This document shows, piece after piece, positions 40,099 through 58,788 of a stretch of 64,000 bases of DNA (position 1 is its first letter; each line of letters begins with the position of its first letter). Below the pieces are notes generated by a model. It was not told where the DNA came from. It saw nothing but the letters and a program-made list of their open reading frames with translations, and searched no databases. The position numbers and the translations under genes are program-made. This DNA comes from Croceivirga thetidis (GTDB taxonomy: Bacteria > Bacteroidota > Bacteroidia > Flavobacteriales > Flavobacteriaceae). The stretch spans positions 62,001 through 126,000 of the forward strand of contig NZ_JAAWWL010000002.1 of NCBI RefSeq assembly GCF_012272815.1, read 5' to 3'.

Positions 40099-40423
40099 AT
40101 GCTACGATTTAGTAAATGGTCGTTTTTAACTGCCGAACATAACATTAGAACGGAATCTACTATAGAAGCCGGCACATAGGTTCGGGTATTCTTATTGCAA
40201 TTCACCCTTGATTTTTTACCATTTATACAGTTTTTAACATAATTTGTTATAAAAACCCTAAATTGTTAAAGTTTTCTCCCCTGAAAAATGAAAAGTCTGA
40301 AAAAGTTGAAAAGACTCGGTGAATAAAGAATAAATCCTTCAGGGATTATTAGATAACAAAGAAGTAGCCCCACAATCTTCAATGTTCTAACCGCTTGTGT
40401 TGTACAAATCAACACCAGCAAGT
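40099..40423. other. Intergenic region upstream of the tail-collar operon
   Basis: 325-bp AT-rich gap between divergent genes. It includes an imperfect palindrome GTTTTTAACA (40230-40239) / TGTTATAAAAAC (40245-40256) and several A/T runs. No exact TAnnTTTG box with good spacing was found. No small gene is visible. It is likely the regulatory region of the operon that starts at 40424. Confidence 0.5.
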
Positions 40424-40960
40424 ATGAAAAACAAATTACACCGCAGAGGTTTTCTTAAAAACTCCTTGGCTGCCTCTGGTAGCCTTATGCTTTCAGTTCC
40501 CTTAAGTGCTGCTGCATTCCCAAACACCACGGCCGCATCAAAATGCGATATACGGTTGAATCCTTTTGGGAAGCAATTGGAAATTTCAGGAAAAATTTTT
40601 GATGCAAGCGGAAAAAAAGTATTGCCAAATACCACTTTACAGTTTTGGCATTTTGTTGACGATGCAAAAAAGAAAAGCCATCGCGGTATGCTTACCACGG
40701 ACGATAAAGGACGCTACCAAATTAAATTGGACTATCCATCAAATACAGGGGATAGGGCTTTAAACTTCGGCTTCGATTTATCCAATGGAGCGAAGAATTA
40801 TCAAACCAATTTGAAAATCTCAGAATTTGATGCCTTTATCACAGGGGAGCATTGGGAAGCGAACAATCAATTAGAGGATAATTTATTATTCCCCAAACAT
40901 TCAAAAAGTGACCATAGAACCATGGTCGAATTCAATATTTCTTTAAACAACCAAAAATAA
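40424..40960 (+). CDS. Tat-exported intradiol-dioxygenase-like beta-sandwich protein
   Basis: 178 residues from the ATG at 40424 (a GTG nine codons upstream also reads in frame). A twin-arginine signal 'HRRGFLKNSLAASG' is followed by a hydrophobic stretch. The mature domain carries 'EISGKIFDASGKKVLPNTTLQFWHF' and 'HRGMLTTDDKGRYQIKLDYPS', the core pattern of intradiol-dioxygenase/Cna-B-like beta-sandwiches. The second half lacks the usual iron ligands ('RPAHIH' type), so catalysis is doubtful. It is the first gene of a five-gene run with gaps of 3-18 bp ending at the 48993 terminator. Confidence 0.82.
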   Translation: MKNKLHRRGFLKNSLAASGSLMLSVPLSAAAFPNTTAASKCDIRLNPFGKQLEISGKIFDASGKKVLPNTTLQFWHFVDDAKKKSHRGMLTTDDKGRYQIKLDYPSNTGDRALNFGFDLSNGAKNYQTNLKISEFDAFITGEHWEANNQLEDNLLFPKHSKSDHRTMVEFNISLNNQK

Positions 40961-40969
40961 TTTTATACT

Positions 40970-41497
40970 ATGGCTGTAGATCCATTATTAGGTCAGTTAA
41001 TGACTGTAGGCTTTAATTTTGCTCCAAGGGGTTGGGCCCGTTGCGAGGGTCAACTTTTAGCTATTGCTCAATATTCGGCATTATTCTCTCTATTGGGAAC
41101 TACCTACGGGGGCGATGGAAGAACATCCTTTGGACTACCGGACCTTCGAGGCCGGTCAATAATCGGTGTAGGTAGTGGCCCAGGATTGGGTACTATCCAA
41201 TGGGGGGAAAAAAATGGCGTTGAAGATGTAACGCTGACCATACAAAACTTACCTCCACACAATCATGCTATTGCGATACCGGTAAGTGACGAAACCGGTG
41301 AGGAATCCGATCCCACTAGTAATGTTATTGCGAGTCGCACAGATGGCTTTAAGTCCACCCCGAATACTACTTTAAATGGCAACGCGGCCGCAACAACTGC
41401 AAATACTGGAGGCGGTGTGGCTATTAACATTCGTAACCCTTATTTGGGCATGTATACCTGCATCGCTCTTCAGGGTATTTTTCCATCTAGATCATAA
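40970..41497 (+). CDS. Tail-collar (Mdp-like) protein A
   Basis: 175 residues of the phage tail collar / microcystin-dependent protein family. N-terminal 'LLGQLMTVGFNFAPRGWARCEG' and 'FSLLGTTYGGDGRTSFGLPDLRGR' are the collar signature; the centre has 'LPPHNHAIAIP', and it ends 'IRNPYLGMYTCIALQGIFPSRS'. No signal peptide. A paralogue follows after 4 bp. Family members occur both as phage tail parts and as free-standing bacterial proteins of unknown role; no other phage genes are nearby. Confidence 0.92.
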   Translation: MAVDPLLGQLMTVGFNFAPRGWARCEGQLLAIAQYSALFSLLGTTYGGDGRTSFGLPDLRGRSIIGVGSGPGLGTIQWGEKNGVEDVTLTIQNLPPHNHAIAIPVSDETGEESDPTSNVIASRTDGFKSTPNTTLNGNAAATTANTGGGVAINIRNPYLGMYTCIALQGIFPSRS

Positions 41498-41501
41498 CGT
41501 T

Positions 41502-42023
41502 ATGTCAGCAAATCCATATTTAGGACAGATTACCACATTCGGGTTCAATTTTGCCCCAAGAGGCTGGGCAACTTGTCAAGGACAATTACTCCCGATTAGT
41601 CAAAACAACGCGCTTTTTTCATTATTGGGAACAACATATGGCGGCGATGGGAGAACGACTTTTGGACTTCCTGATTTGAGGGGTAGAACAGTTATTGGGC
41701 AAGGTAACGGTCCCGGTTTGAGTAATATTAGATGGGGTGCTAGAGCTGGGGCGGGATCCCGGAATTTGACTTCGGCTAATATGCCGAGTCATAATCATAG
41801 CTATAACCAAAAACTTAACGCCTCTGATGAGGCAGGGGACCTAGATAACCCGGCATTAAATTTTTTGGCCGAACATGGCGGTGCTTACAATGAAGACCAG
41901 GCTGGCGAGCGTACTTTGGCCACTTCAAACGTTGGCTCGGGAACAGCCTTTTCAGTCCGTAATCCCTATTTGGGTATGTATCCCTGTATTGCTACGGTAG
42001 GGGTGTATCCCTCAAGAAGTTGA
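41502..42023 (+). CDS. Tail-collar (Mdp-like) protein B
   Basis: 173 residues, starting at ATG 41502; the longer open frame into the previous gene is not coding. Paralogue of protein A: 'YLGQITTFGFNFAPRGWATCQG', 'FSLLGTTYGGDGRTTFGLPDLRGR', 'MPSHNHSYNQ' and the ending 'VRNPYLGMYPCIATVGVYPSRS'. The central variable region differs from A, as expected for a heteromeric or receptor-specific pair. Followed after 3 bp by a binding-protein-like gene. Confidence 0.92.
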   Translation: MSANPYLGQITTFGFNFAPRGWATCQGQLLPISQNNALFSLLGTTYGGDGRTTFGLPDLRGRTVIGQGNGPGLSNIRWGARAGAGSRNLTSANMPSHNHSYNQKLNASDEAGDLDNPALNFLAEHGGAYNEDQAGERTLATSNVGSGTAFSVRNPYLGMYPCIATVGVYPSRS

Positions 42024-42026
42024 TTT

Positions 42027-43142
42027 ATGAAAGTAGCCTTTCTTTTACCAACTTCAGATATGTATCCAGCCTTGGCCAAGGATTTTTTGAACGGGTTCAA
42101 AATGGCCTTTGTGCAGCGTGAAGATAAATTTGAGTTTGTCTTTGAAGGCATAGGTAAAGCAGCAGATGATTATGTCGTAAAAACGGCTGAGAAATTATTA
42201 CTCCAAGAAGAAGTCGACCTCACCGTGGCCTTTTGTAGTTTTTTTCAACTTAAGCCACTGGTTGATAAGTTTGAGCAATATCAGAGCCCACTAATTTTTG
42301 TAGACTTAGGGGGGGCGCTCCCAAAAACCGAACATTTTGGGCAGTTTGTGCTGCACCATTCACTTCATCTTTGCGAGTCTGCTTTTTATGCAGGCCAATA
42401 TGCAGCAAAAAATATTGGTAAAAAGGGCGCATTACTCGCTTCTTTTTATGATGGAGGCTACCAAATGGCTGCTTCTTACGTCAAGGGTTTTGTGGATAGT
42501 GGTGGCGAGATGGTCTACAATTTTGTAGCCCCAATGGACTACCACGATGTTGATTTGAACATCATTTTTCAAGAACTGGAAGAGAGTGGGGCAGATGTAG
42601 CCTTTACCTTATTTAGTTATAAAGAGGCCGGCCACTTTTTTGAAGCGATGGCGAAGCAGAAGAAGGAAACCCTTCCATATATGATGGCATTGCCTTTGGC
42701 AACAGATGGCAGCATGAAGTACACTGATTTTGGTCTTTCGCAAGTACATTCTGTGGCCTCTTGGTCATTTGACGACCCCAATGAAGCAATGACTTCCTTC
42801 GTCAATTCCTATAAAGATAACTATCAAAAAGCACCGACTGTTTTCGCATTGCTCGGTTTTGAAACAGCCCTTTTGGCGCTTAGTGCAAAACGCGATAACA
42901 GAATTTCATTCGAAAAACTTAAAGGCATTGAAATAAAAACCAGCCCAAGAGGTGTACTACAAATAAATCAAAACAATCAGACCTCGGTCAAAAAACATTT
43001 ACTCCGAAAATTTGAATACAACTGCACGGAGTATCACAATCTAATTGAAAAAATAGTGCCATCGGAACATACGGGTGCCCTTTATGATTTTATGGAGGGA
43101 GTACCCTATACCGGATGGCGAAATCCATATATCTGTACCTAA
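42027..43142 (+). CDS. Periplasmic-binding-protein-fold protein without signal peptide
   Basis: 371 residues. Its two-lobed pattern matches the Leu/Ile/Val- or amide-binding (type 1 periplasmic binding) family: 'VDLTVAFCSFFQLKPLVDKF', 'ALLASFYDGGYQMAASYVKGFVDSGG', 'FQELEESGADVAFTLFSYKEAGHFFEAM' and 'FALLGFETALLAL'. The protein begins 'MKVAFLLPTSDMYPALAKDF', directly at the first beta strand, with no signal peptide, so it is predicted to stay in the cytoplasm unless exported otherwise. Co-operonic with two collar proteins. Ligand unknown. Confidence 0.82.
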   Translation: MKVAFLLPTSDMYPALAKDFLNGFKMAFVQREDKFEFVFEGIGKAADDYVVKTAEKLLLQEEVDLTVAFCSFFQLKPLVDKFEQYQSPLIFVDLGGALPKTEHFGQFVLHHSLHLCESAFYAGQYAAKNIGKKGALLASFYDGGYQMAASYVKGFVDSGGEMVYNFVAPMDYHDVDLNIIFQELEESGADVAFTLFSYKEAGHFFEAMAKQKKETLPYMMALPLATDGSMKYTDFGLSQVHSVASWSFDDPNEAMTSFVNSYKDNYQKAPTVFALLGFETALLALSAKRDNRISFEKLKGIEIKTSPRGVLQINQNNQTSVKKHLLRKFEYNCTEYHNLIEKIVPSEHTGALYDFMEGVPYTGWRNPYICT

Positions 43143-43160
43143 TAAAATAACTCCACCAAA

Positions 43161-46100
43161 ATGAAAAACATTACCCTTACATTTCTGTTTTTTACACTAA
43201 TGACCCTAGCGGGTTACGGCCAAAAAGTGGCCATTGTAAGTTTAAACCACACCTCGCCCGATGGTATGGCAATTGTAGCGCTTGAAGATTTGCCTTCTGG
43301 CGAAACATTCTATTATACCGATAAGGAGTACGATGCTGCTAATGATGCATTTGAACCACAAGAAGTTGTGGTTGAGATCGTATTGACCTCGGCAATGGCC
43401 AGGGGGCAGGTCATTACCATTTCAGAAATCTCTTCAGATGTGCTGAGTTTTACTTGCACCAGTGGTTGCACGGGTTCAGCTACGGTAATTGATTCAGTGA
43501 ACACGAATTTTTCATTGGCTACCGATGGAGAGGGGCATTACTTATACGCTGATGATGATACCGACCCCACCAATGGCATTACCGAAATCTATTGTGTGGT
43601 TTTTACGGGTAGTGGTGAGAACCCGGTGGTAAATGGTGGTCCAATACCCGCTAATGAAGATCCGACGTCGGATTTTCCAGATGCAATTGTGGTCGATGGC
43701 TTCCCGGCCTCCGATCCTGGGTTCACAGAATTTAATCCAGCTTTACGAAGTGGTTCGGTTTCAAAAAGCGATCTGGAGGACCCCGCTAATTGGACACACG
43801 GTCAAGCAAATGCTACACCATCACAGACACCCTTTACAGATATTGCAGTTGGGGGTGATACCACCCCACCAACAATTACCTGTCCAACCGTTTCGCCCGC
43901 TGCATTGGATATAAATTGTGAAAATGCATTGCCTGATTATAGAAGTTTCCCTACGGTGGCCGATGATATGGACCCAAATCCCGTAGTAACGCAAGACCCT
44001 GCCCCAGGTACGATTCATTCAACGGATATTGACGTCACCTTAACAGCAACTGATGCCTCGGGTAATTCAGCTTCCTGCACTTTTACCTTAGAAGTAATAG
44101 ATGCAATAGCTCCCTCAGCGGTCTGTCGAAACATCAGGGTGCAACTAGATGCTTCTGGCAATGCTACCATTACAGCAGCTGATATTGATGGTGGTTCTAC
44201 TGATAATTGTGGTGTCACTGCCTTAGTGGCAAGCAAGACTGCTTTTACAACAGCTGATGTAGGTGATAATGACGTTACACTTACGGTATCTGATGCGGAT
44301 AACAATATGTCTACTTGTACCGCTATAGTTACGGTTGAGGACAATGTGGCACCAAACGCTGTATGTATTCCTTCCAACTCGATAACCTTGAGATTGGGCC
44401 TTGATGGAACAGCAAGTTTATTTGCCAATGCTATTGATAATGGTTCAAATGATGCTTCGGGGATAGCCAATTTGGAAGTTAGTCCTGACCTTTTCACCTG
44501 TGCTGATTTTGGGGAGCGTACGGTAACTCTAACGGTAACCGATAATAATGGCAATGTGTCTTTCTGTAGCACTATTATTCAAATTGATGATGTTTTGCCC
44601 CCAGAAATCACATGCCCATCTGATGTGATGAGAACGAGTAGCAGTTCACTGGTTTTGACTTTGGCCGATCTTGGTACACCGTCTACGCTGGATAATTGTA
44701 ATGTGGCCAGTGTCGTGGGTACACGTTCTGATAATAATAGCACAGATTTGGTAGCCGCACCCTTTCCACAAGGGGTTACTAACATCAACTATGTGGTTAC
44801 CGATATTCATGGCTTAACAAACACTTGCTCCCAGACCGTAACCATTATGCCACCGCCCTTGGTCAATGTCCCAAATGTGGTTGGTTTACAACAAGCCACG
44901 GCTGAATCGAATCTTTTACTTGCTGGTTTGACGATAGGCACAGTGACCACAGCCAATGATAATACGGTGCCTGCTGGTAATGTTATCAGTCAAAACCCAA
45001 CTTCTGGAACTTCAGTGGCAGAAAACAGTCCAGTTGATTTGGTAGTTTCCTTAGGGCCATCTTGTATAGTTTCAATCGATACCCAGCCTCAAGACCCAAC
45101 AGTATGCGAATTTGACTCATTAAGTTTGTCAGTAGTCGCTTCAGGGACTGGGACTCTATCGTATCAATGGCAATTTGCTGCGCCTGGATCATCTAGTTTT
45201 AGTGATGTTCTAACCAATTCGCCAACAGTTCAAGTTGGGGCAACTGTAAGTTTAGGTGCCAATGGTAACCAATACAGAGTAATTGTTACCAGTGACAATG
45301 GTACACCGAGCGATTCAAGTGATGATTGTTCAGTAACCAGTGATGCAGTGACACTAACGGTAAACCCATTGCCAACCGTAACCTTTACGGCCCCGGACGA
45401 CCTTTGTATTGATGCAGGAGTCCAAACCGGTCGAGGAGGGGGTACACCCGCCCAAGGTCCGTCAGCAGGAGATTCTGGAGTCTATAGCGGCCCAGGGGTA
45501 ACCGACGACGGCAATGGTATGACCTATTCTTTTGACCCTGCGGTAGCCGGTGTTGGGGTACATGAAATTACCTATGAATATACCGATGGCAATGGCTGTA
45601 CAGGTTTAGCCACAGATGAGGTTGAAGTTTTTGCTTTACCCGTACTTACGTTTACCGCCCTTGCAGATTTGCCAGTTAACGCAGGCGTACAAACCAATCT
45701 TGGCGGGGGTAATCCCGTAGGTGGGGTCTATAGCGGTATAGGAGTAACAGACAATGGTGACAGTACCTATGATTTCGACCCTTCAGTCCCTGGTGTGGGC
45801 ACCCATACTATTACCTATACCTATACTAATCTCAATGGTTGTACAAATTCAGCCAGTGATGATGTTGTGGTGCTACCAGCACAACCGCTATGTAGTGTGA
45901 CTATCGAGGTTCAACCGGTTGATGCTTCTTTATGTTTGTCCCCGTTACCTATTGGGGCCAGTATTTCGGTAACTGCGGTTACCAATGGCGCAAGTTTGAG
46001 TTACCAATGGGAGCAATTGCTTAGTGGTAGTTCAACTTGGACTGAGATTGGACCAGATAGTAATGAGTTGTTGTTTCAAGCGCCACCACTTTCATGGGAT

Positions 46101-48968
46101 GACTCACAATACCGGGTGATTGTCACCTCTGACAATGGTACCCCTGCTGACGATACAGACGATTGTTCGGAAACCAGTGATTCGGCAACCTTATCGGTAA
46201 ATGAACTTCCAACCGTAACCTTTACAGCCCCTGGGCCATTTCAACAGGCCTCTGGTATAGAAACAGGCTTGGGAGGTGGACTGCCCGTTGGTGGTGTTTA
46301 CTCAGGTAGTGGAGTTTCTGACGATGGTAATGGCGAAACCTTTTCATTCGATACGGCGTTTCTAGATTCTGAACAGGTTGAAGTTACCTATACCTTCACA
46401 GATGCAAATGGTTGTACCAATTTTGCTAGGGATAATATTGTTAGTGGTATTCCAGAAATTTCAATCGATGATGTAGTCCTAGCTGAAGGTACGGGTGGCA
46501 CAACGACATTCGTATTTACAGCTACGCTAAGTCGAGCGAGTGCAAATACGATTACTGTTGATTATGAAACTTTAGATGGTACTGCAGTTGCCACAGAAGA
46601 TTACACAGAAGTGGAAGCTACCTTGACGTTTAATCCCGGAGAAACTTCCAAATCATTTGGTATCGACGTAAACCCAGATTCAGCATTTGAGTCGGACGAG
46701 ACCTTTTTCATACAACTGGTTGACCCCGTCAATGCTGCCATTGCCGATAATGAGGGTATTGGTACGATACTGAATGATGATGCCCCCGCTGCGATTTACA
46801 TCAACTCCGGCGGCGGCGAGACGGTATTCGATGGCAAGACCTTTGTTGCCGATACGAATTTCAATGGGGGAGTGACCGCGGCCAATACAAGCCTTGCGAT
46901 AGCTGAACTGTTCCAGAGCGAGCGTAATGGTCCCAGTGAGGAATTTGGTTATGACATTCCCTTACCAAATGGGGAGTACCAGGTCACACTTTACTTTGCC
47001 GAGACCTTCTGGGGATTGGGCACACGGCCCGGTATTGGCGCGAGGGTATTCGATATAATGCTCGAGGGGAACACAGTGCTCGATGATTATGATATCATTG
47101 CCGATGCCGGTGGTGCTGCGATTCCGATAGCCAAGACCTTTACAGTAGTAGTCAACGATGGCCAACTGGACCTTGACCTTGACAGTCTTGGCGATGACGG
47201 TTCGGACAGGCCCAAGCTATCAGGTATAGGCATTGTAGGCGGTTCCGGGGCCCCTGTGAACACCAAACCGGTAATTACCCTCAACGGTCCCGTAGTGGTG
47301 ACCTTGATCCAAGGGGAGACCTATATCGAGGAGGGAGCTACGGCGAACGACCTTGAAGATGGCCCTATACCGGTACTGATCGGTGGTGAGACGGTAGATA
47401 CCTCCACCCCGAATACGTATATCGTTACCTATAATACGGTCGATAGCGGTGGCCTTGCGGCAGATGAGGTGACCCGTGCAGTGACGGTATTACCATTGGG
47501 CAATCCGGATTTTGCACTGCGCATCAATGTCGGCGGCCCTGATACGGTGCTCAACGGCGATGACTTTATGGCCGACGCCTTCTTTGATGGCGGCCTAGCA
47601 AGCACCAATGGCAGTCTTGCCGTACCAAGCCTGCACCAAAGTGTACGCACATCACCAACTCAGGAGTTTGGTTATGACATCCCACTTGCGGATGGCGACT
47701 ACACGGTAACACTTTATTTCACGGAGACCTTCTGGGGATTGGGCACACGGCCCGGAGCAGGTTCACGGGTGTTCGATGTGATGATGGAGGGCATTACCGT
47801 ACTTGACGATTATGATATCATTGCCGACATCGGTGGAGCGGGCATTCCCGTGACAAAGAGCTTCGCGGTTACGGTCACAGGCGGGCAGTTGGACATCGAC
47901 CTTGATGCCCTAGGGCCTGACGGTGCCAACCAACCTACCTTATCGGGTATTGAAATAGAGGGTACGGGTGGCCCAGTGAACAACAAGCCAGTGATAAGCC
48001 TTAACGGCCTGGCGAACATCACCCTGACCGAAGGGGACGCCTATACCGAAGAAGGCGCAACGGCGAACGACCCAGAGGATGGCCCAGTAGCGGTAAGCAT
48101 CGGGGGCGATACTGTTGATACAGGCACACCGGGCACCTATGTGGTGACCTACGACGCCGTCGATAGCCAAGGACTTGCAGCCGACCAGGTGGTCCGAACG
48201 GTCACGGTACAGGCTGATGGCCCAACGGACTTTGCCCTTCGCATCAACGCGGGAGGCCCTGAGACCGTATTGGGCGGCGATACCTTTATAGCTGACGCCT
48301 TCTTTACCGGCGGCGGCACAGGAAGCAACGCTGGTCTCGCGGTCCCTGAACTGCACCAGACCGAACGTACCTCACCGACACAGGAGTTCGGATACGAATT
48401 ACCATTGGTGAACGGACAGTACGAGGTGACGCTTTACTTTACCGAGATATTCTGGGGTATCGGAACCCGACCAGGGGTAGGAGCCCGAGTGTTCGACGTA
48501 CAGTTGGAGGGCAGCACGGTATTGGATGACTTTGACATTGTAGCGGACAGTGGTGCCGGGGTAGCGGTGAGCAAGACCTTTACGATAACGGTATTGGACG
48601 GACAGTTCGACCTTTACCTGGAAAGCCTAGGTTCGGATGGTGCAAACCAACCGACGCTATCGGGCATAGAGATCGAATCGATTGGAACGATGGCCTCGCC
48701 ATTACAGTTCAATACGAACAGCATGTCGTTATCACCGAACCCAGCGAACATCACCTCTGTGGTCTCTTTCGAGGAACCTGAGGAGATAGAGCAGATACAG
48801 GTATTCGATTTAACGGGTAGATTGATTCAGAGCTTCGATGCGAAGAAGATAAGAAACGGTGATACCTTTGAGATGGACGTGTACCCGATACCAGTGGGCA
48901 CCTACATCGTTAGGGCTGAAAGTCCTTCGGGCTTCCAGTACAACAAACAGATGGTCATCAAACGCTAA
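43161..48968 (+). CDS. Giant T9SS-secreted multidomain protein (HYR, PASTA, Calx-beta, malectin)
   Basis: 1935 residues. The signal peptide ends about residue 20 ('TLAGYGQ'). Order: an N-terminal beta domain (~21-230); HYR/Ig-like repeats with Cys pairs (~233-560); a PASTA domain (~567-631, 'VPNVVGLQQATAESNL'); Ig-like and 'VYSGxGVTDDG' repeats (~640-1095); Calx-beta (~1097-1206); malectin (1211-1361); DUF5011 (1367-1444); malectin (1449-1600); DUF5011 (1605-1683); malectin (1688-1843). A type A T9SS sorting domain ends in 'KQMVIKR'. It is probably a cell-surface adhesin or glycan-binding protein. It is the last gene of the tail-collar operon; its final ~1 kb is nearly identical to the end of the GH16 gene. 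Confidence 0.9.
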   Translation: MKNITLTFLFFTLMTLAGYGQKVAIVSLNHTSPDGMAIVALEDLPSGETFYYTDKEYDAANDAFEPQEVVVEIVLTSAMARGQVITISEISSDVLSFTCTSGCTGSATVIDSVNTNFSLATDGEGHYLYADDDTDPTNGITEIYCVVFTGSGENPVVNGGPIPANEDPTSDFPDAIVVDGFPASDPGFTEFNPALRSGSVSKSDLEDPANWTHGQANATPSQTPFTDIAVGGDTTPPTITCPTVSPAALDINCENALPDYRSFPTVADDMDPNPVVTQDPAPGTIHSTDIDVTLTATDASGNSASCTFTLEVIDAIAPSAVCRNIRVQLDASGNATITAADIDGGSTDNCGVTALVASKTAFTTADVGDNDVTLTVSDADNNMSTCTAIVTVEDNVAPNAVCIPSNSITLRLGLDGTASLFANAIDNGSNDASGIANLEVSPDLFTCADFGERTVTLTVTDNNGNVSFCSTIIQIDDVLPPEITCPSDVMRTSSSSLVLTLADLGTPSTLDNCNVASVVGTRSDNNSTDLVAAPFPQGVTNINYVVTDIHGLTNTCSQTVTIMPPPLVNVPNVVGLQQATAESNLLLAGLTIGTVTTANDNTVPAGNVISQNPTSGTSVAENSPVDLVVSLGPSCIVSIDTQPQDPTVCEFDSLSLSVVASGTGTLSYQWQFAAPGSSSFSDVLTNSPTVQVGATVSLGANGNQYRVIVTSDNGTPSDSSDDCSVTSDAVTLTVNPLPTVTFTAPDDLCIDAGVQTGRGGGTPAQGPSAGDSGVYSGPGVTDDGNGMTYSFDPAVAGVGVHEITYEYTDGNGCTGLATDEVEVFALPVLTFTALADLPVNAGVQTNLGGGNPVGGVYSGIGVTDNGDSTYDFDPSVPGVGTHTITYTYTNLNGCTNSASDDVVVLPAQPLCSVTIEVQPVDASLCLSPLPIGASISVTAVTNGASLSYQWEQLLSGSSTWTEIGPDSNELLFQAPPLSWDDSQYRVIVTSDNGTPADDTDDCSETSDSATLSVNELPTVTFTAPGPFQQASGIETGLGGGLPVGGVYSGSGVSDDGNGETFSFDTAFLDSEQVEVTYTFTDANGCTNFARDNIVSGIPEISIDDVVLAEGTGGTTTFVFTATLSRASANTITVDYETLDGTAVATEDYTEVEATLTFNPGETSKSFGIDVNPDSAFESDETFFIQLVDPVNAAIADNEGIGTILNDDAPAAIYINSGGGETVFDGKTFVADTNFNGGVTAANTSLAIAELFQSERNGPSEEFGYDIPLPNGEYQVTLYFAETFWGLGTRPGIGARVFDIMLEGNTVLDDYDIIADAGGAAIPIAKTFTVVVNDGQLDLDLDSLGDDGSDRPKLSGIGIVGGSGAPVNTKPVITLNGPVVVTLIQGETYIEEGATANDLEDGPIPVLIGGETVDTSTPNTYIVTYNTVDSGGLAADEVTRAVTVLPLGNPDFALRINVGGPDTVLNGDDFMADAFFDGGLASTNGSLAVPSLHQSVRTSPTQEFGYDIPLADGDYTVTLYFTETFWGLGTRPGAGSRVFDVMMEGITVLDDYDIIADIGGAGIPVTKSFAVTVTGGQLDIDLDALGPDGANQPTLSGIEIEGTGGPVNNKPVISLNGLANITLTEGDAYTEEGATANDPEDGPVAVSIGGDTVDTGTPGTYVVTYDAVDSQGLAADQVVRTVTVQADGPTDFALRINAGGPETVLGGDTFIADAFFTGGGTGSNAGLAVPELHQTERTSPTQEFGYELPLVNGQYEVTLYFTEIFWGIGTRPGVGARVFDVQLEGSTVLDDFDIVADSGAGVAVSKTFTITVLDGQFDLYLESLGSDGANQPTLSGIEIESIGTMASPLQFNTNSMSLSPNPANITSVVSFEEPEEIEQIQVFDLTGRLIQSFDAKKIRNGDTFEMDVYPIPVGTYIVRAESPSGFQYNKQMVIKR

Positions 48969-49024
48969 TGACCACACCAAACTGACCAAAATAAAAAGCC
49001 GCTCCCAAGAGCGGCTTTTTAATT
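47979..49024 (+). repeat. Duplicated DUF5011-malectin-sorting cassette, copy 1
   Basis: 1046 bp from 'NNKPVISLNG' through the stop codon and terminator, nearly identical to 55662-56707 at a constant offset of 7683 bp with no net indels. It differs at scattered positions, mostly in a few malectin loops and near the sorting domain. Confidence 0.93.
48993..49020 (+). terminator. Terminator of the tail-collar operon
   Basis: Perfect stem AAAAAGCCGCTC / GAGCGGCTTTTT with CCAA loop, 25 bp after the stop codon. The same terminator follows the GH16 gene with loop CCGG. Confidence 0.92.
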
Positions 49025-49130
49025 GTTCAAAGTTGGCGCAAATAGTCTAAAAATCGTATTACTTAGTGTGTCAACCTTTTCCTTAAAAAAATGAAGAATC
49101 ACAAAAAATTACAATCAAAAATTACATATA

Positions 49131-49202
49131 TGTTTAACGATATCTTCAAATAGTAACGAATTCGCATCTTTTCGTTAAACAAGATTGTGAAAGACCGTTA
49201 AA
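49131..49202. promoter_or_regulatory. Candidate operator cluster upstream of the GH16 gene
   Basis: TGTTTAACGA (49131-49140) and TCGTTAAACA (49172-49181) are exact reverse complements. A third half site CGTTAAA lies at 49196-49202 and is followed by a TTAAC inverted repeat. Spacing of the centres is ~41 and ~22 bp, close to whole helical turns. A weak -7 element TATTTTTC (49225-49232) is downstream. The regulator is unknown. Confidence 0.4.
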
Positions 49203-49250
49203 TAAATTAACTTATATCACTTTTTATTTTTCTAACTAACACCTCACCAA

Positions 49251-52200
49251 ATGAAAAGAAATTACCTTTCTCAGTACAAGGTTGTACGCTTATTTTTCAA
49301 ATGCAGTACGGCCTTATTTTTTTGCCTCTTTTTCCAGTTTTCTTTCGCTCAGAATTACCAATTGGTATTTGAGGATGAGTTCGATGGAACAGCGGTTGAT
49401 TTAACCAATTGGACCTTCCAAATTGGCGATGGAACCAGCGAAGGAATTCCCGGTTGGGGAAACAATGAACTACAGTATTACCGAGAAGAGAATACTACGG
49501 TTGCCAATGGTTTTATGACCATAACCGCAAAAGAAGAGAGCTTTGGCGGTTACAATTACACTTCATCAAGGCTGATAACCAAGAACAAACAGGATTTTAC
49601 CTATGGTAGAATGGAAATGCGGGCAAAAATGCCGATTGGTAAAGGCATGTGGCCAGCATTTTGGATGTTGTTTACTGACCCAACGATTTATGGTAGTTGG
49701 GCTGCCGGAGGTGAAATCGATATTATGGAATATCTCGGGGACAAACCTGAGGAAATCATCGGTACCATCCATTATGGTCAACCTTTCCCCGGTAATTTAT
49801 TTACTACCGAAGAATTTATATTGACCGATGGCACCAATTTTAATGACGACTTTCATGAATTTGCCATAGAATGGGAACCCGGTGAGATTCGTTGGTACGT
49901 CGATGATATTTTATATGCAACCCAAAACGATTGGTTTTCCAATGGTGGTCCATACCCAGCACCTTTTGACCAACCTTTTCACTTTCTTTTGAATTTGGCC
50001 GTTGGGGGTAACCTACCCGGTAATCCTGACGCGACCACGGTATTTCCGCAAGAGTATGTAATCGACTATGTACGGGTTTATGAAGATTTAGACTTACCGA
50101 CCGTGGTTTTGAACAGTCCATCTGACGGCGACACTTTTAGTGCTGGCGATGCTATTACACTTACGGCAACACCTGCTGCAACGCAAGGTGTAGATAAGGT
50201 TGAATTTTACCAAGGGGATCTAAAATTGGGTGAGGCCACTTCATCCCCTTATGAAATTACCATTTCCGATATAGCTGAAGGTAGTTATAGAATCCGTGCT
50301 TTGGTCATAGATTTGGCTGGTAAGATCAATTACTCGCCTTTTGCCGAAATACAGGTGGGTGCCGAAGATCAAGGTCCCTACGCCTTGGTGCCAGTGGGCA
50401 TCCCCGGTATGGTTGAGGCCGAAAATTTTGATGTCGGAGGCCAAGGTGTTGCTTATAACGATTCCGACCCAACCTTAAACGAGGGTACGAAAGTCGTGGC
50501 CAATAGATATCGGAATGACGAAGGCCCTGACATTGAGCCAACTTCAGATACAGGTGGAGGTTCCAATATCGGTTTTGTTGCCGATGGGGAATGGTTGGAG
50601 TATACCGTTAATGTAGCACAGGCTGGTAGTTATGATATCATTGCAAGAGTTGCTTCAGGTGGAAGTTCCGGTTCGTTTAATCTCGAATTTGATGGCGTGG
50701 ATAAGACAGGTGCAATTGGTGTTCCTGCCACAGGAGGTTTTCAGTCTTGGGCGGATGTTATTAAAGAAAGTGTAGTTCTTGAGGCAGGAATTCAGGTTTT
50801 ACGCATCAACTTTTTAGTTGGTGGTTTTAATATCAATAAAATCACCTTTCAACCAGCCGACCCAAGTTCTGGCGAAAAAGTCGTCTTTGACGATATGGAA
50901 CATGGTGATCCATTCAACAATGCGTGGTTCGCTTTTGGTGGTTCAGTCGGTGGCGGTGGGGTTGACCCCAATGCGAGCGATCTACCTCCTCTTAATGGTG
51001 GGGCTTTTTCACTACAGACCGGTTGGGGATCTGGCGGAACGCCTGGTTTTTATGGTGGTTTCGGCCGTACTAACCTGGTTAACATCTCGCAGACCACATT
51101 TTTCAATATGTGGATAAACCCAGACGCTGATCAAGATTATACCCTCGAAATCAATCTACAGGAACTCGATGAGGGCAATTCGGCCAGAGACGAATTTCAA
51201 TACAATTTAACGGTAAGTCCAACTGGTCCAGGTGCAATTGCCGGAGGTGGTTGGCAGCTGATTTCTATACCCTTGACCGACTTTTTTGATGACAATTCAA
51301 ATATTGTCGATGGCAATTCGGTATTGGATGACCTCATAGAAAATGTGGTGATTGCGGTGATAGGAAATACAGGTTCCGATGCCACCTTTAGAACGGATTA
51401 TTGGTCGTTCACCAATGGACCACTTGGTCCTGAGATTATGGTTGATCCAATTTCACATGATTATGGTGATGCTGCCTTGAATACCACAAGTTCCCGTGTT
51501 TTTAGTGTGACCAACGAAGGCTGCACGGCGTTGAACATTACTGGTTTTAGTTTGACCGGTACCGATACCTCTGAATTTTCATTACCTAACGGAAATGACC
51601 CTTTTGTAGTGAGCCCTGGTCAATCGCAAAATATTTTGGTCAGATTTAACCCAACATCTTTAGGAGCCAAAACAGCTACCTTGACAATCAATAGTGATGA
51701 TGCCGATGAAGGGTTAATTGAAATTCCATTGACCGGCACCGGCATTGAAGGTACAGGTACCAACAAGGTGGTATTTGACGATATGGAACATGGTGATCCA
51801 GATGCAGATTCGGGTTATTTTACGTTTAATGGGGAATCCACACCATCTGTAAGTGCGACCACCACAGATTTACCTCCAGAAGACGGTGGCGGTTTTGCCA
51901 TTGACGTCAGCCTTGATGGAGGATCTGCAGGAGGCTTTTTAGGTGGCTTCGGAAGAACCTTCCCAATTGACTTGACAGATATGACCCATTTCAATTTCTG
52001 GATAAATCCGGATGCAGGTCAAGACTATACCATTGAGATACAGTTGCAGGAAGATGATAATGGCGATGATGATGTGCCATTCGGTTCTGCTGATGATGAT
52101 GAATTCCAGTACAACCTGACCGTAAACGCATCGGGTCAGGCTGTAAGTGGAGGTGGATGGCAGTTGATTTCAATTCCGCTATCCAGCTTTTTTGATGACG

Positions 52201-55200
52201 GAACCTTTTTTGGTGGAAATGGAATTTTAGATCCCATTTCTACGGCTAATGGAGGCAATGGACAATTGGTAAATGTAATCTTCGGATTCTTGACAAATTC
52301 TGGAGCACCCATTAGCTTTAGAACAGACCTTTGGTGCTTTTCACAAGAACCTATTGATGAGACAGGACCGATGGTTGCTGCACCTGATCCAACCGAAGAC
52401 CCGGCCAATGTCATTTCCTTGTTCAGTAATGTCTACGATGACGTACCAGTTGATACCTTTCGAACGGACTGGTCAAACGGAAATCTAGAAGACGTTCAAA
52501 TAGAGGGTAATGATACCAAGAAGTACACCAACTTAAGTTTTGTAGGTATTGAGACGGTCGCGAACCAAATTGACATTACTGGAATGACACATTTCCATAC
52601 GGATATTTGGACTCCTGATGCGACACAGTTTAGGATAAAGTTGGTTGATTTTGGAATGGATGGTGCTTTTGATGGCGGAGACGATGTTGAGCATGAGATA
52701 ACCATTGAGAATCCAGCCCAAGGGGAGTGGGTAAGTTTGGATTTACCGCTTACTGATTTTACTGGGTTAACAACAAAAATGAACATTGCGCAACTGATAT
52801 ACTCAGGCCAACCTGCCGGTCAGTTTACGGTGTTTGTGGATAACATTTATTTCTACAATGCAGACGCTGCACCAGGTGACAAAGTGGTTTTTGATGATAT
52901 GGAACATGGTGACCCATTCAATAACGGATGGTTTGCTTTCAATGGTGATGGGGGAGGTGGCCTAGACGCCAATTCCAGCGATTTACCTCCTGAAAATGGT
53001 GGTTCATTTTCATTGCAAACTGGTTGGGGTATCGGCACAGGAGGATTCGTAGGAGGTTTTGGTAGATCAAACACCGTCGATATTTCTGGAATGACCAACT
53101 TTGACATGTGGATCAACCCAGATGCAGCGCAAGACTACGTCCTTGAAATAAATCTACAAGAAGATGAAAATGGTGATGGTGCTCCGGATGAAGAATTTCA
53201 ATACAACTTACCTATCAATCCAACTTCAACAATAAGTGCAGGTGGAGGATGGCAACAGGTTTCAATACCGTTGGCTGACTTCTTTGACGACAATAGTTTT
53301 CTTAATGGTGGTAATGGGGTAATGGATAATACCATTGTCAATATTGTTATTGCCGTTGTTAGTACTGCAGGAGGAGACGCCACGTTCAGAACCGATTTCT
53401 GGTGTTTTTCTCGAGAATCATCAGGCCCTTCAGAACCAATGGTAGCGGCACCTGACCCAACACAAGATCCAGCGAATGTGATTTCATTGTTCAGTGGCGT
53501 CTATAACGACGTTCCGGTAGATACTTTTAGAACCCCATGGTCTGATGCTACATTCGAAGATGTGCTTATTGAAGGCAATGCCACCAAAAAATATAGTGCA
53601 CTGAATTTTGTTGGCATCGAGACCGTTGCAAACCAGATTGATGTAACGGGAATGACGCATTTCAGAACGGATATTTGGACTGCCGATGCGACACAGTTCA
53701 GGATAAAGCTTGTTGATTTTGGGGAAGACGGCGCCTTTGATGGTGGTGATGACGTTGAACATGAAATTACGATTGAGAATCCTGCACAAGGCGAATGGAT
53801 AAGCTTGGATATTCCACTAGCGGACTTTACAGGTCTTACCAAAAAGATGAATATTGCGCAACTCATCTATGCAGGTCAACCTGCGGGGGAGTTCACCGTA
53901 TTTATTGATAACATCTATTTCTACAATGCTGATGCGGGTACTGGTCCTACCGAACCAATGGTAGCTGCCCCTGACCCAACACAGGATTCAGCGAATGTCA
54001 TTTCATTATTCAGTGGTGTCTACAACGATGTTCCGGTAGATACTTTTAGAACCCCATGGTCCGATGCAACATTGGAAGATGTACTGATAGAAGGCAACGC
54101 TACCAAGAAGTACAGTGCATTGAACTTTGTCGGTATTGAGACCGTTGCGAACCAGATTGATGCTACTGGAATGACGCATTTCAGCGTGGATGTTTGGTCG
54201 GCAGATGCTACCCAGTTCAGAATAAAGCTTGTTGATTTTGGGGAAGATGGTGCTTTTGATGGGGGTGATGACGTTGAACATGAATTAACCTTTGAGAATC
54301 CTGCACAAGGTGAATGGATAAGCTATGACATTCCATTGACGGCGTTTGAAGGTTTGACCAAGAAGATGAATATTGCACAGCTGATTTTTGCAGGTCAACC
54401 AGCTGGGGAGTTTACGGTATTCATTGACAATATATATTTCTATAACGCCGATACAGGTGGCGGAAATCCTGATTTTGCCCTCTACATCAATTCTGGTGGT
54501 GGTGAGACGGTATTCGAGGGCAAGACCTTCCAGGCGGACACTTATTTCAATGGTGGAGATGCCTATTCCAATGCCCTTGTTCCGGTAGCGGAGCTCCACC
54601 AGAGCGAGCGAACCTCAGGCAGTAAGGCCTTTGGCTATGGCATCCCCGTACCTGATGGGGAGTACGATGTATCACTGTACTTCACCGAACTGTTCTGGGG
54701 CTCTTTCGGCGGCGGCGTTGGCAGCCGTGTGTTCGATGTGATGCTTGAGGGCGGCACGGTGCTCGACGACTATGACATCATTGCAGAGGTGGGTGCCGGA
54801 GTACCGGTAAAGCGCACCTTCCGTGTAACGGTATCGGACGGGGAACTGAACATCGATTTGGACGCCCTTGGCCTTGATGGTCTTGACCAACCGACGCTAT
54901 CGGGCATCTGCGTAGTGAGCGTTGGCGGTGGAGCGGTGAACACCAAACCCGTGATAACCCTCAACGGAGCAGCAAGCATCACCCTTAACGTAGGGGACAC
55001 CTATGTAGAGGAAGGTGCCACAGCCACTGACCCCGAGGAGGGCGACCTACCTGTAGGTTCGATAACGATAGGTGGCGATACTGTTGATACAGGCACCCCT
55101 GGCACCTATGTGGTGACCTATAACGTAATGGACAGTGAGGGCCTTGCCGCCGACCAGGTAACAAGGACGGTGAGTGTTGAGACGCTTGACGAACCGAACT

Positions 55201-56651
55201 TCTCGGTATTCATCAACTCAGGTGGGGGAGAGACGATACTGGGGGGCAAGACCTTTGTGGCGGACACCTATTTCAATGGAGGCAATACGGCAGTGAACAA
55301 CCTCTTGGCGGTAGCGGAGCTGCACAAGACGGAGCGCACCTCTGGCACGAAGGAGTTTGGCTATGACATTGCGGTACCCAACGCGGAGTACGACGTAACG
55401 CTGTACTTCACCGAGATATTCTGGGGCGCCTTCGGTGGCGGTCCTGGCAGCCGTGTGTTCGACGTGATGTTGGAGGGCGGCACGGTACTTGACGATTATG
55501 ACATCATTGCCGATGTCGGTGCGGGCACAGCGGTATCGAAGACCTTCAGGGTCATGGTCTCCGATGGGCAGTTGGACATCGACCTTGACGCCCTTGGGGC
55601 AGATGGGGTGGACCAGCCCACACTATCTGGCATAGCGGTACAGAGCATAGGCGGCACGATAAACAACAAGCCTGTGATAAGCCTTAACGGCCTGGCGAAC
55701 ATCACCCTGACCGAAGGGGACGCCTATACCGAAGAAGGCGCAACGGCGAACGACCCAGAGGATGGCCCAGTAGCGGTGAGCATCGGTGGCGATACGGTTG
55801 ATACAGGCACACCGGGCACTTATGTGGTGACCTATGACGCCGTCGATAGCCAAGGACTGGCGGCCGACCAGGTGGTCCGAACTGTAACGGTACAGGCTGA
55901 TGGCCCAACGGACTTCGCCCTTCGCATCAACGCGGGAGGCCCCGAGACCGTATTGGGCGGTGATACCTTTATAGCGGACGCCTTCTTTACGGGCGGTAGC
56001 ACGGCCAGCAATAGCGGTCTTGCGGTCCCTGAACTGCACCGGACGGAACGTTCCTCACCAACAAAGGAGTTCGGATACGAACTGCCATTGGTGAACGGAC
56101 AGTACGAAGTGACGCTTTACTTTACTGAGATATTCTGGGGCCTAGGAACCCGACCAGGGGTAGGAGCCCGAGTGTTCGACGTACAGTTGGAGGGCAGCAC
56201 GGTATTGGATGACTTTGACATTGTAGCCGACAGTGGTGCCGGGGTAGCGGTGAGCAAGACCTTTACGATAACGGTGTTGGACGGACAGTTCGACCTTTAC
56301 CTGGAGAGCCTAGGTTCTGATGGTGCAAACCAACCGACGCTATCGGGCATAGAGATCGTATCGCAAGGTGGTTCAGGGGCCTCATTGATGGCGAACATCA
56401 ATGCGATGTCGTTATCACCGAACCCAGCGAACATCACATCAGTGGTCTCCTTCGAGCAGCCGGAACAGATAGAGCAGATAAAGGTGTTCGATTTAACCGG
56501 TAGGCTGATACAGAGCTTCGATGCGAAGAAGATAAGAAGGGGCGATACCTTTGAGATGGACGTGTACCCGATACCAGCGGGGACGTACATAGTCAGGGCG
56601 GAGAGTCCTTCGGGTCTGGAGTACAACAAACAGATGGTGATAAAACGCTAA
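49251..56651 (+). CDS. Giant T9SS-secreted GH16 glucanase with CBM6, malectin and repeat modules
   Basis: 2466 residues. Signal peptide ~1-34. GH16 catalytic domain (~35-285) with 'EIDIMEYLG' (E155, D157, E160) typical of laminarinases (endo-beta-1,3-glucanases). Then: Ig-like (~285-375); CBM6 (~380-535, 'VEAENFD'); three 'FDDMEHGDP' modules (~541, 840 and 1210); an ASH-like domain (727-833); three 'PMVAAPDPT' modules of about 165 residues (starting 1040, 1396 and 1569); malectin/DUF5011/malectin/DUF5011/malectin (~1740-2371); and a T9SS sorting domain. Likely secreted or surface-attached for algal beta-glucan breakdown. Monocistronic, with a terminator at 56676 and a two-component system just downstream. 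Confidence 0.93.
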   Translation: MKRNYLSQYKVVRLFFKCSTALFFCLFFQFSFAQNYQLVFEDEFDGTAVDLTNWTFQIGDGTSEGIPGWGNNELQYYREENTTVANGFMTITAKEESFGGYNYTSSRLITKNKQDFTYGRMEMRAKMPIGKGMWPAFWMLFTDPTIYGSWAAGGEIDIMEYLGDKPEEIIGTIHYGQPFPGNLFTTEEFILTDGTNFNDDFHEFAIEWEPGEIRWYVDDILYATQNDWFSNGGPYPAPFDQPFHFLLNLAVGGNLPGNPDATTVFPQEYVIDYVRVYEDLDLPTVVLNSPSDGDTFSAGDAITLTATPAATQGVDKVEFYQGDLKLGEATSSPYEITISDIAEGSYRIRALVIDLAGKINYSPFAEIQVGAEDQGPYALVPVGIPGMVEAENFDVGGQGVAYNDSDPTLNEGTKVVANRYRNDEGPDIEPTSDTGGGSNIGFVADGEWLEYTVNVAQAGSYDIIARVASGGSSGSFNLEFDGVDKTGAIGVPATGGFQSWADVIKESVVLEAGIQVLRINFLVGGFNINKITFQPADPSSGEKVVFDDMEHGDPFNNAWFAFGGSVGGGGVDPNASDLPPLNGGAFSLQTGWGSGGTPGFYGGFGRTNLVNISQTTFFNMWINPDADQDYTLEINLQELDEGNSARDEFQYNLTVSPTGPGAIAGGGWQLISIPLTDFFDDNSNIVDGNSVLDDLIENVVIAVIGNTGSDATFRTDYWSFTNGPLGPEIMVDPISHDYGDAALNTTSSRVFSVTNEGCTALNITGFSLTGTDTSEFSLPNGNDPFVVSPGQSQNILVRFNPTSLGAKTATLTINSDDADEGLIEIPLTGTGIEGTGTNKVVFDDMEHGDPDADSGYFTFNGESTPSVSATTTDLPPEDGGGFAIDVSLDGGSAGGFLGGFGRTFPIDLTDMTHFNFWINPDAGQDYTIEIQLQEDDNGDDDVPFGSADDDEFQYNLTVNASGQAVSGGGWQLISIPLSSFFDDGTFFGGNGILDPISTANGGNGQLVNVIFGFLTNSGAPISFRTDLWCFSQEPIDETGPMVAAPDPTEDPANVISLFSNVYDDVPVDTFRTDWSNGNLEDVQIEGNDTKKYTNLSFVGIETVANQIDITGMTHFHTDIWTPDATQFRIKLVDFGMDGAFDGGDDVEHEITIENPAQGEWVSLDLPLTDFTGLTTKMNIAQLIYSGQPAGQFTVFVDNIYFYNADAAPGDKVVFDDMEHGDPFNNGWFAFNGDGGGGLDANSSDLPPENGGSFSLQTGWGIGTGGFVGGFGRSNTVDISGMTNFDMWINPDAAQDYVLEINLQEDENGDGAPDEEFQYNLPINPTSTISAGGGWQQVSIPLADFFDDNSFLNGGNGVMDNTIVNIVIAVVSTAGGDATFRTDFWCFSRESSGPSEPMVAAPDPTQDPANVISLFSGVYNDVPVDTFRTPWSDATFEDVLIEGNATKKYSALNFVGIETVANQIDVTGMTHFRTDIWTADATQFRIKLVDFGEDGAFDGGDDVEHEITIENPAQGEWISLDIPLADFTGLTKKMNIAQLIYAGQPAGEFTVFIDNIYFYNADAGTGPTEPMVAAPDPTQDSANVISLFSGVYNDVPVDTFRTPWSDATLEDVLIEGNATKKYSALNFVGIETVANQIDATGMTHFSVDVWSADATQFRIKLVDFGEDGAFDGGDDVEHELTFENPAQGEWISYDIPLTAFEGLTKKMNIAQLIFAGQPAGEFTVFIDNIYFYNADTGGGNPDFALYINSGGGETVFEGKTFQADTYFNGGDAYSNALVPVAELHQSERTSGSKAFGYGIPVPDGEYDVSLYFTELFWGSFGGGVGSRVFDVMLEGGTVLDDYDIIAEVGAGVPVKRTFRVTVSDGELNIDLDALGLDGLDQPTLSGICVVSVGGGAVNTKPVITLNGAASITLNVGDTYVEEGATATDPEEGDLPVGSITIGGDTVDTGTPGTYVVTYNVMDSEGLAADQVTRTVSVETLDEPNFSVFINSGGGETILGGKTFVADTYFNGGNTAVNNLLAVAELHKTERTSGTKEFGYDIAVPNAEYDVTLYFTEIFWGAFGGGPGSRVFDVMLEGGTVLDDYDIIADVGAGTAVSKTFRVMVSDGQLDIDLDALGADGVDQPTLSGIAVQSIGGTINNKPVISLNGLANITLTEGDAYTEEGATANDPEDGPVAVSIGGDTVDTGTPGTYVVTYDAVDSQGLAADQVVRTVTVQADGPTDFALRINAGGPETVLGGDTFIADAFFTGGSTASNSGLAVPELHRTERSSPTKEFGYELPLVNGQYEVTLYFTEIFWGLGTRPGVGARVFDVQLEGSTVLDDFDIVADSGAGVAVSKTFTITVLDGQFDLYLESLGSDGANQPTLSGIEIVSQGGSGASLMANINAMSLSPNPANITSVVSFEQPEQIEQIKVFDLTGRLIQSFDAKKIRRGDTFEMDVYPIPAGTYIVRAESPSGLEYNKQMVIKR
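52368..54455 (+). repeat. Three PMVAAPDP modules in the GH16 gene
   Basis: Module starts at 52368, 53436 and 53955. The last two are tandem with a 519-bp period and are almost the same in sequence; the first is separated from them by a 'FDDMEHGD' module. They encode a beta-sandwich with 'FVDNIYFYN'-type ends, probably carbohydrate-binding. Confidence 0.88.
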
Positions 56652-56707: not shown

Positions 56708-56719
56708 TCCTGAATATTA

Positions 56720-56735
56720 ATCGAATAAATTCGAT
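56720..56735. promoter_or_regulatory. Perfect palindrome upstream of the sensor kinase
   Basis: ATCGAAT-AA-ATTCGAT, centred ~41 bp before the kinase ATG and touching a near-consensus -7 element GATATTTG (56733-56740). It could be an operator for a dimeric regulator, such as the neighbouring LuxR-type protein. Confidence 0.4.
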
Positions 56736-58784: not shown

Positions 58785-58788
58785 TAGG

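Follow-up and report, generated by a model that had tools for sequence, protein, structure and literature searches.

Linked phage-collar genes, a binding-protein fold and a giant T9SS protein in Croceivirga thetidis: a possible member of a widespread uncharacterised surface system

The DNA analysed here (the window) is a stretch of 64,000 nucleotides from the Croceivirga thetidis contig NZ_JAAWWL010000002.1. It contains five genes, all on the forward strand and separated by gaps of 9, 4, 3 and 18 nt, and the gene coordinates (Table 1) bear out the gene set and spacings given in a preliminary description of this DNA. The single terminator placed there at the operon end has its counterpart in a terminator-like hairpin after gene 5; the scan alone is weak evidence, since it returned 19 such sites in the scanned 13 kb vs. 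12.7 expected. The earlier domain calls also hold, with collar proteins encoded by genes 2 and 3, a binding-protein fold by gene 4 and a malectin/PASTA protein of the type IX secretion system (T9SS) by gene 5.

Table 1. Features of the collar operon and its surroundings (window coordinates).
Feature	Coordinates	Strand	Basis or remark
Gene 1, Tat-signal protein (RRGFLKNS...) with a degenerate beta-sandwich of intradiol-dioxygenase type that lacks the His ligands	40424..40960	+	Pfam/TIGRFAM, alignment
Gene 2, collar protein of 175 aa without visible signal peptide	40970..41497	+	PF07484, E 1.3e-27
HNH triplet (HxH motif) of gene 2, residues 97-99	41258..41266	+	alignment A1
Gene 3, collar protein of 173 aa without visible signal peptide; paralogue and sister of gene 2	41502..42023	+	PF07484, E 2.6e-29
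HNH triplet (HxH motif) of gene 3	41790..41798	+	alignment A1
Gene 4, periplasmic-binding-protein fold without signal peptide; C-terminal W-x-N-x-Y conserved	42027..43142	+	PF13458 (Peripla_BP_6)
Gene 5, 1935-aa T9SS repeat protein (HYR, PASTA, Calx-beta, malectin, Ig-like, sorting tail)	43161..48968	+	Pfam/TIGRFAM
N-terminal domain of gene 5, no Pfam match; homologous to N-termini of giants in other collar operons	43221..43880	+	hhalign
C-terminal modules shared by gene 5 and the next gene	47835-48134 / 55518-55817; 48723-48968 / 56406-56651		constant spacing 7683
Terminator-like hairpin, 13-pair stem-loop, palindromic	48992..49021	+ (scan lists -)	terminator scan
Lineage-specific block, 19.7 kb, with collar operon, GH16/malectin gene, histidine kinase and response regulator	40099..59841	.	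congener comparison
GH16/malectin gene	49251-56651		in lineage-specific block
Histidine kinase	56769-58784		in lineage-specific block
Response regulator	58789-59436		in lineage-specific block
YebC-type gene	59842-60552		right border of block

The product of gene 1 has an RR-type N-terminus, in which RRGFLK is followed by a hydrophobic stretch, and scores 13.9 bits against TIGR01409 (cut-off 16.7) and 21.4 bits against PF00775 (E 1.8e-4, cut-off 27.3). As both matches lie under their cut-offs, the twin-arginine and dioxygenase labels are readings and not formal memberships. Intradiol ring-cleavage dioxygenases hold iron through Tyr/Tyr/His/His ligands that include an HxH motif. This motif is absent from the gene 1 alignment A3 and, with PF00775 under its cut-off, an intradiol ring-cleavage dioxygenase was rejected for gene 1. 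TatC is encoded in the genome.

Genes 2 and 3 score 95.9 and 101.4 bits against PF07484 (cut-off 24) and are the only matches to this family at E <= 0.001 in the 3.7-Mb genome; gene 2 also matches phage tail families (PHROGs). When compared with solved structures, a four-row profile of genes 2 and 3 and two collars of L006, a locus described below (profile A1), matched the long tail fibre 8kec (E 8.1e-9) and the T4 short tail fibre 1ocy (E 7.7e-4), the latter over residues 5-75 of the profile. H97 and H99 are invariant across the four rows, and HxH was found in 157 of 174 compared collar proteins, in 145 of these as P..HxH; nine of the 17 exceptions are at most 115 aa long, the rest being of ordinary or great length. 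In T4 gp12 the HxH residues are metal ligands, and metal binding by the HxH of the collars is predicted. The AlphaFold monomer of gene 2, computed from the four-row alignment, had a pLDDT of 34. For a group of collar paralogues in Candidatus Solibacter, a positive-selection signal is reported in PMC3174227, the sequences being too few for the further test of that paper.

Gene 4 matches PF13458 with 67.5 bits (E 2.2e-18, cut-off 31.7). No signal peptide was seen by eye, and Pfam identified no ABC permease or ATPase among the surrounding proteins scanned. In 30 aligned members of the gene 4 family (the window and 29 relatives) the commonest letters of the C-terminal motif were W364 in 28, N366 in 26 and Y368 in 24 sequences, and this GWxNxY-type motif is partly kept even in Deinococcus. 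Among solved chains, 4ey3 is the closest in sequence (E 3.6e-12), with substrate-binding proteins next, and an AlphaFold model from a two-row alignment reached a pLDDT of 39. The nearest solved relatives bind aromatic acids, and the fold of gene 1 is that of catechol dioxygenases; an aromatic-acid reading of genes 1 and 4 was nevertheless dropped, gene 1 being without ligands and the identity of the nearest relative being a weak guide.

A binding-protein fold of this kind, with neither signal peptide nor transporter partners seen, could belong to a sensor module, in which gene 4 would be an AmiC-like cytoplasmic ligand sensor controlling assembly or expression of the surface protein and the collars its interaction partners. 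The relationship to 4ey3 and the substrate-binding proteins, and the histidine kinase and response regulator of the same island, are consistent with such a role. However, the operon has no DNA-binding or antiterminator gene, and Tat-like signals on the binding protein of L075, L076, L191 (Deinococcus plasmids) and L111 contradict a cytoplasmic sensor as the general role, which leaves the sensor module decidedly improbable. The "cytoplasmic binding-protein fold" of the preliminary description thus fits the window protein, but not these relatives.

Gene 5 contains three malectin stretches, a signal-type start (MKNITLTFLFFTLMTLAGYGQ, by eye) and a C-terminal sorting tail (TIGR04183, 34.5 bits vs. 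23; PF18962, 29.4 vs. 27), and is with this combination a predicted type IX secretion substrate. The homology of its N-terminal domain to those of other giants was seen in one hhalign comparison (probability 96.8%, E 2.3e-10), and a profile of the domain matched 45 of 296 genomes. The six strongest matches all lie in loci with collars and a binding protein of the gene 4 family, four of them being rows of the profile. Only nine of the places listed could be recognised as collar loci, the remaining genomes among the 45 giving weaker matches at other places, and a restriction of the domain to collar operons was rejected. The gene that follows gene 5 (GH16/CBM6/malectin, 2466 aa) has C-terminal modules in common with it, at 83% and 88% DNA identity, a sign of recent module duplication.

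The dehydrogenase and YebC-type genes flanking the block are present in ten of ten congeners. The interval between them was read in seven, the two genes lying on different contigs in the other three. In G002, G003 and G004 the homologue of 39607-40098 is adjacent to the YebC-type gene and the block is absent, and in G005, G006, G008 and G009 the site holds other cargo, by eye giant or sugar-use genes (ORFs of at least 100 aa). The stretch 40099-59841 is thus a lineage-specific block at a variable site. PF07484 gave one match each in two of the ten congeners (44.7 and 32 bits) and none in eight. At this site G009 encodes a 1936-aa giant (L242:6002-11812) that shows 43% identity to a portion of gene 5 and has no visible collar gene as neighbour. 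The variable site, empty in three congeners, and the rarity of PF07484 in the genus would both suit coincidental neighbours, that is, independent genes gathered in a variable island, and it is the neighbourhoods outside the genus that speak against this.

With gene 4 as query, matches were found in three of 60 relatives including its own genome, and a contig scan added one locus, L006, from a Flavobacteriaceae MAG. Because gene 4 itself found so few matches, a relative was used as query over 395 genomes, and the binding-protein gene was identified in 20 genomes of the phylum, own genome included. The 20 loci outside the window (19 genomes and L006) were read, those of the 19 genomes with larger flanks; the assignment of the compared genomes to Bacteroidota rests on T9SS genes and on L006 as the nearest named locus. 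One to three same-strand collars were present in all 20 loci, as immediate neighbours of the binding-protein gene in 19 and two genes away in L043. Downstream of the binding protein, directly or past a formyltransferase or collar, a large secreted-type protein was found in 18 of the 20, in several only as fragments, interrupted by a contig end, masking or a frame break; L034 and L038 have a small secreted-type protein next (628 and 388 aa). The order in L006 matches that of the window, with a Tat protein, collar, binding protein and large protein, the first three being 35%, 45% and 43% identical, and the gene 1 homologue (L006:5329-5874) directly precedes the collar and binding-protein gene.

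Collars, the binding-protein subfamily of gene 4 and large secreted-type proteins are thus linked in a conserved manner. The linkage in 20 of 20 other loci, and the same order at 35-45% identity in L006, refute coincidental neighbours in the case of genes 2-4 and, with less force, in that of genes 1 and 5, so that this explanation keeps a barely appreciable probability. Conserved co-function is close to certain for genes 2-4 and likely for gene 5; for gene 1 it is likely through L006. Co-function of the gene set is therefore well supported, and the earlier expectation that the genes should work together is backed by the conserved neighbourhoods. A gene set random among relatives, named in the preliminary description as grounds for abandoning its proposal, was looked for and not found, since neighbourhoods are conserved across loci.

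Of 296 genomes sampled from the whole phylum, 80 contain PF07484 proteins. For a sample that starts from the collars, 80 stretches (L083-L162) were taken among the matches listed; 74 gave a collar gene and six were dropped with no collar hit (L085, L101, L126, L128, L154 and L161). Together with 14 stretches from the same genome list, window included, they make up 88 collar clusters. As control served 230 genes in 20 hand-placed stretches from 20 of these genomes, away from known collars and with content unseen. A giant (at least 700 aa, few K/R, many T/S/G/N) within three genes was found for 37 of the 88 clusters vs. 16 of the 230 control genes (Fisher p 1.6e-12, a guide only, because neighbouring control genes share giants). 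The other 51 clusters have no giant within three genes, and several of these giant-less collars, 88-116 aa in length, may be phage-borne.

Within four genes of the collars, the partners recurring in the 88 clusters were the binding protein (19), a formyltransferase (12), DUF6916 (8), a GNAT acetyltransferase (7) and an Asp-hydroxylase-like protein (4); the GNAT, formyltransferase and DUF6916 partners were confirmed by Pfam on samples. DUF6916 (PF21880) is a small recurrent partner (L087, L095, L096, L097, L099, L111, L118, L125, L185, L187), mostly together with a GNAT gene, and was confirmed by Pfam in L095 and L111 and identified by its own profile elsewhere. Another kind of collar locus has a single collar and recurrent small proteins, with no giant (L104, L110, L113; L109, L127, L131); the single collars of L104, L110 and L113 have a Sec-like start. 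In L189 and L076, and by eye in L090 and L133, collars lie near PqqD, lasso-type B2, asparagine-synthetase, sulfotransferase-like and 2OG-oxygenase genes, and the collar genes near PqqD/B2-type genes look as if they belonged to peptide-modifying clusters.

In other phyla, 17 plasmid loci from Deinococcota, Bacillota and Pseudomonadota were compared, chosen by hand among the matches listed of 66 records, plus one of another search. Annotation was used for GC-rich plasmids because the ORF caller loses collars there (all in L078, some in L076, L189 and L191); L185, L187 and L188, which have no annotation, were read by ORF call. In an uncontrolled count, a protein of 899 aa or more lies no further than five genes from the collars in 16 of the 17 loci, 13 by annotation and three by ORF call (L185, 1786 aa; L187, 2162 aa; L188, 1872 aa). 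The large protein of Tistrella (L188) lies four ORFs off on the opposite strand, and none of this size was found within five genes in Azospirillum oryzae. Collar trios were found in 13 of the 17 loci (annotation or ORF call) and a GNAT acetyltransferase in nine (eight by annotation, L185 by profile). Deinococcus KNUC1210 encodes a VcbS protein, three collars, a binding protein and a GNAT protein, and D. ficus has a 2.7-kb gene, three collars, a binding protein and a GNAT protein. Ruegeria TM1040 has an autotransporter giant, three collars, a 405-aa protein without Pfam match and a GNAT protein; Paenibacillus an S-layer-homology (SLH) giant, a GNAT protein and three collars; Kosakonia an Ig-like giant, TolC/HlyD genes and three collars with Sec-like starts; and Pseudoalteromonas CF6-2 a formyltransferase, a collar and an 8.6-kb Ig-like gene. 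Autotransporter domains were identified on the giant partners in both Ruegeria and Rhizobium. Two Deinococcus proteins gave no Pfam match, and no anchor domain was seen by Pfam in the Aliiroseovarius giant.

One of these loci, L186 of Burkholderia, adjoins a tape-measure gene. This find, the PF07484 and PHROG tail matches and the possibly phage-borne short collars are what would be expected of a phage or tailocin remnant, a prophage tail-fibre cassette possibly kept as a phage decoy; in PMC2745422, a Pseudomonas syringae island of collar, acetyltransferase and sulfotransferase genes is likewise credited by its authors to phage transfer. In the window, however, none of nine flanking proteins matches a phage family by Pfam (one of the nine is without any match), and no sheath, tube, baseplate or tape-measure gene is among them, in agreement with the earlier remark that no other phage gene lies near. 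No tail-structure gene beyond collar-type fibres is named in the other annotated plasmid neighbourhoods, none of the four proteins of genes 1-4 matches a PADLOC anti-phage defence model, and partner genes and collar classes are conserved across phyla. A phage or tailocin remnant is thus strongly disfavoured and very improbable. The preliminary description had also named collar homologues within a known complete tail cluster as evidence against its proposal; no such cluster is seen among the nine proteins flanking the window operon, and one of the 17 plasmid loci (L186) lies beside a tape-measure gene.

The collar trios were also compared by phylogeny. In a quick tree of 94 collars (30 trios, the window and L006) the position labels require 28 changes vs. 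a shuffled mean of 43.1. A careful tree was made of 67 collars from 21 chosen trios (19 of the former 30 and two plasmid trios), the window and L006, leaving out six near-copies (L007, L029, L031, L032, L096, L105) and five other, mostly divergent trios (L082, L090, L133, L139, L145), a choice made with the quick tree already in view. It contains a clade X of 12 rows (support 97/97) and a clade Y of 13 rows (92/80). Eleven of the 21 trios place a single member in X, a single member in Y and the third outside both, namely those of Paenibacillus (L079), Rhizobium (L080), Ensifer (L187) and Deinococcus (L075) as well as L041, L087, L095, L097, L099, L102 and L108; no trio has two members in X or in Y. 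The third members are spread over several groups, one of them weakly supported. Jointly, the three position labels are more clustered in the careful tree than in any of 200 shuffles. Singly, label 3 shows strong clustering, none of 500 shuffles being as low, and labels 1 and 2 show weak clustering (21 and 36 of 500 shuffles as low), since the gene order of the trios has changed. Formyltransferase-type trios form three classes of their own, and the L034 trio consists of three near-copies. Many collar trios are thus divided of old into distinct chains, and the one-of-each pattern is that expected from an ancient obligate heteromeric complex. Genes 2 and 3 are sisters (100/90) that do not map onto the three-chain scheme, and a window complex would therefore consist of two similar chains.

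Signals for export were found on several members of these loci. Tat-like signals are present on collars in L084, L094, L098 and L102, and Tat-like proteins lie beside the collars in the window, L006, L034, L040, L041, L095, L096 and L099. One common family of Tat partners was ruled out, as the eight proteins compared belong to four or more families with no mutual phmmer matches. Near collars, 19 of 805 proteins were Tat-like vs. 10 of 1034 in the control (p 0.022), a modest excess obtained with a hand-made pattern that had been loosened once; the earlier, stricter pattern gave 16 of 739 vs. 4 of 650 and missed gene 1 and L034. In all, a Tat-like signal on a neighbour or collar was observed in 13 of 88 clusters, some of them doubtful. 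A crude Sec pattern flagged 17 of the 174 collars, one being an over-long ORF form of gene 3. In addition, the PF07484 protein YP_165745.1 was detected in the exoproteome of Ruegeria pomeroyi (PMC4949626). The Sec-like starts and this find point to a non-cytoplasmic location of collars, and a folded metal complex would suit the Tat route.

The scarcity of Sec flags among the collars and the lack of visible signal peptides on genes 2-4 could also mean that collars and binding protein stay inside the cell. They would then form a cytoplasmic maturation complex which, with transferases (GNAT, formyltransferase, Asp-hydroxylase-like or sulfotransferase-like), acts as a scaffold modifying, before export, the giant itself or a peptide or small molecule meant for it. 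The recurrent transferase-type partners of the 88 clusters, DUF6916 beside them, agree with this, as do the PqqD, lasso-type B2 and asparagine-synthetase genes beside the Azospirillum collars, PqqD and B2 in Deinococcus QL22 and, by eye, similar surroundings in L090 and L133. However, the window operon is without a transferase, collars or binding proteins of other lineages carry export signals, and a collar protein occurs in the exoproteome mentioned above; such a complex appears unlikely.

The recurrence of the gene set in distant bacteria suggests an uncharacterised cell-surface system built from domesticated phage parts. Tentatively, and at rather less than even probability, we favour the view that the operon is a two-collar member of a widespread system of this kind, in which collars are combined with giant, repeat-rich surface proteins. 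For its export route, ligand and role we infer the following. Genes 2 and 3 would fold in the cytoplasm into a knitted trimer like that of T4 gp12, holding a metal ion through the HxH of each chain, and the folded complex would use the Tat route across the inner membrane, drawn along by the Tat signal of gene 1. Gene 4 may bind a small ligand or serve as an assembly partner. Gene 5 would leave through the T9SS and carry or display the collar knob on the cell surface, where the knob could serve attachment or recognition; the homologous N-terminal domain of the giants helps this notion of display. In other lineages the acetyl- or formyltransferase of the same operon may modify one of these proteins. 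The absence of a signal of their own from the window collars, the modest Tat excess, the small share of clusters with any Tat-like signal (13 of 88) and the 51 of 88 clusters without a giant count against this explanation. So do the small secreted-type proteins of L034 and L038, the matches of the gene 5 N-terminal domain away from collar loci, the G009 giant without a visible collar neighbour, the weak clustering of position labels 1 and 2 and the close sister relation of genes 2 and 3.

In its broadest form the proposal would be that at least four phyla share an undescribed surface apparatus, an obligate collar hetero-oligomer with one chain from each of three ancient classes, metal-folded in the cytoplasm, Tat-exported on its own or a partner's signal, tuned by an acyltransferase and shown on a giant with phylum-specific export, the window operon being a reduced two-collar version; taken as a whole this is rather doubtful. 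The surface recognition or adhesion device of the preliminary description, then offered as speculation, is plausible in view of giants that are, by lineage, of the T9SS, autotransporter, S-layer-homology or type-1-secretion-linked type and of the collar in the Ruegeria exoproteome. The surface-recognition reading is the best available, and unproven.

If free-standing collars are parts of a conserved surface system, many annotations as "tail fiber protein" mislead. It would then be a testable question what use cells make of gp12-like knobs and by which route folded complexes without signals reach the surface, and the recurrent partners (Tat protein, binding protein, acyltransferase and giant) provide direct handles.

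No functional account of the set of collar, binding protein and giant was found among the hits listed from the literature searched, which for the most part excluded subscription journals and preprints. The proteins annotated as COG4675 "microcystin-dependent protein" (gene name MdpB) or "tail fiber protein", and RhiB of Rhizobium, share PF07484, and the plasmid relatives are also similar to them in size; unlike these, the window set has two collars, a signal-less relative of binding proteins, a Tat beta-sandwich and a T9SS giant. RhiB is a collar protein encoded in the rhiABCD operon, beside quorum-sensing genes (PMC13133039), soil metaproteomes have been found to contain COG4675 proteins (PMC5579227), and the Acaryochloris collars AM1_3688-AM1_3690, the acetyltransferase AM1_3686, AM1_3684 and AM1_3687 have table values of the same sign, AM1_3685 and AM1_3691 being missing from the same tables (PMC11633204).

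Among better known systems, part of profile A1 resembles the T4 short tail fibre gp12 (1ocy), but the collars are short free-standing proteins, often as three paralogues, with no tail genes found around the window copy. By sequence, gene 4 is in the same fold family as ABC-transporter substrate-binding proteins (PF13458; 4ey3, 3hut), from which it differs by the lack of a signal peptide and of adjacent transporter genes, by W-x-N-x-Y and by its linkage to collars. Giant T9SS adhesins with SprB repeats are represented by the giants of L008, L034 and L039, which carry 21, 13 and 13 SprB stretches and a T9SS tail, whereas gene 5 has no SprB match and contains malectin, PASTA, HYR and Calx-beta modules. 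The mosaic adhesive trimer fibres of Bdellovibrio are tail-fibre-like trimers used by a bacterium at its own surface. They carry signal peptides and form long fibres, in contrast to the short collars described here, which are linked to a giant protein of another fold.
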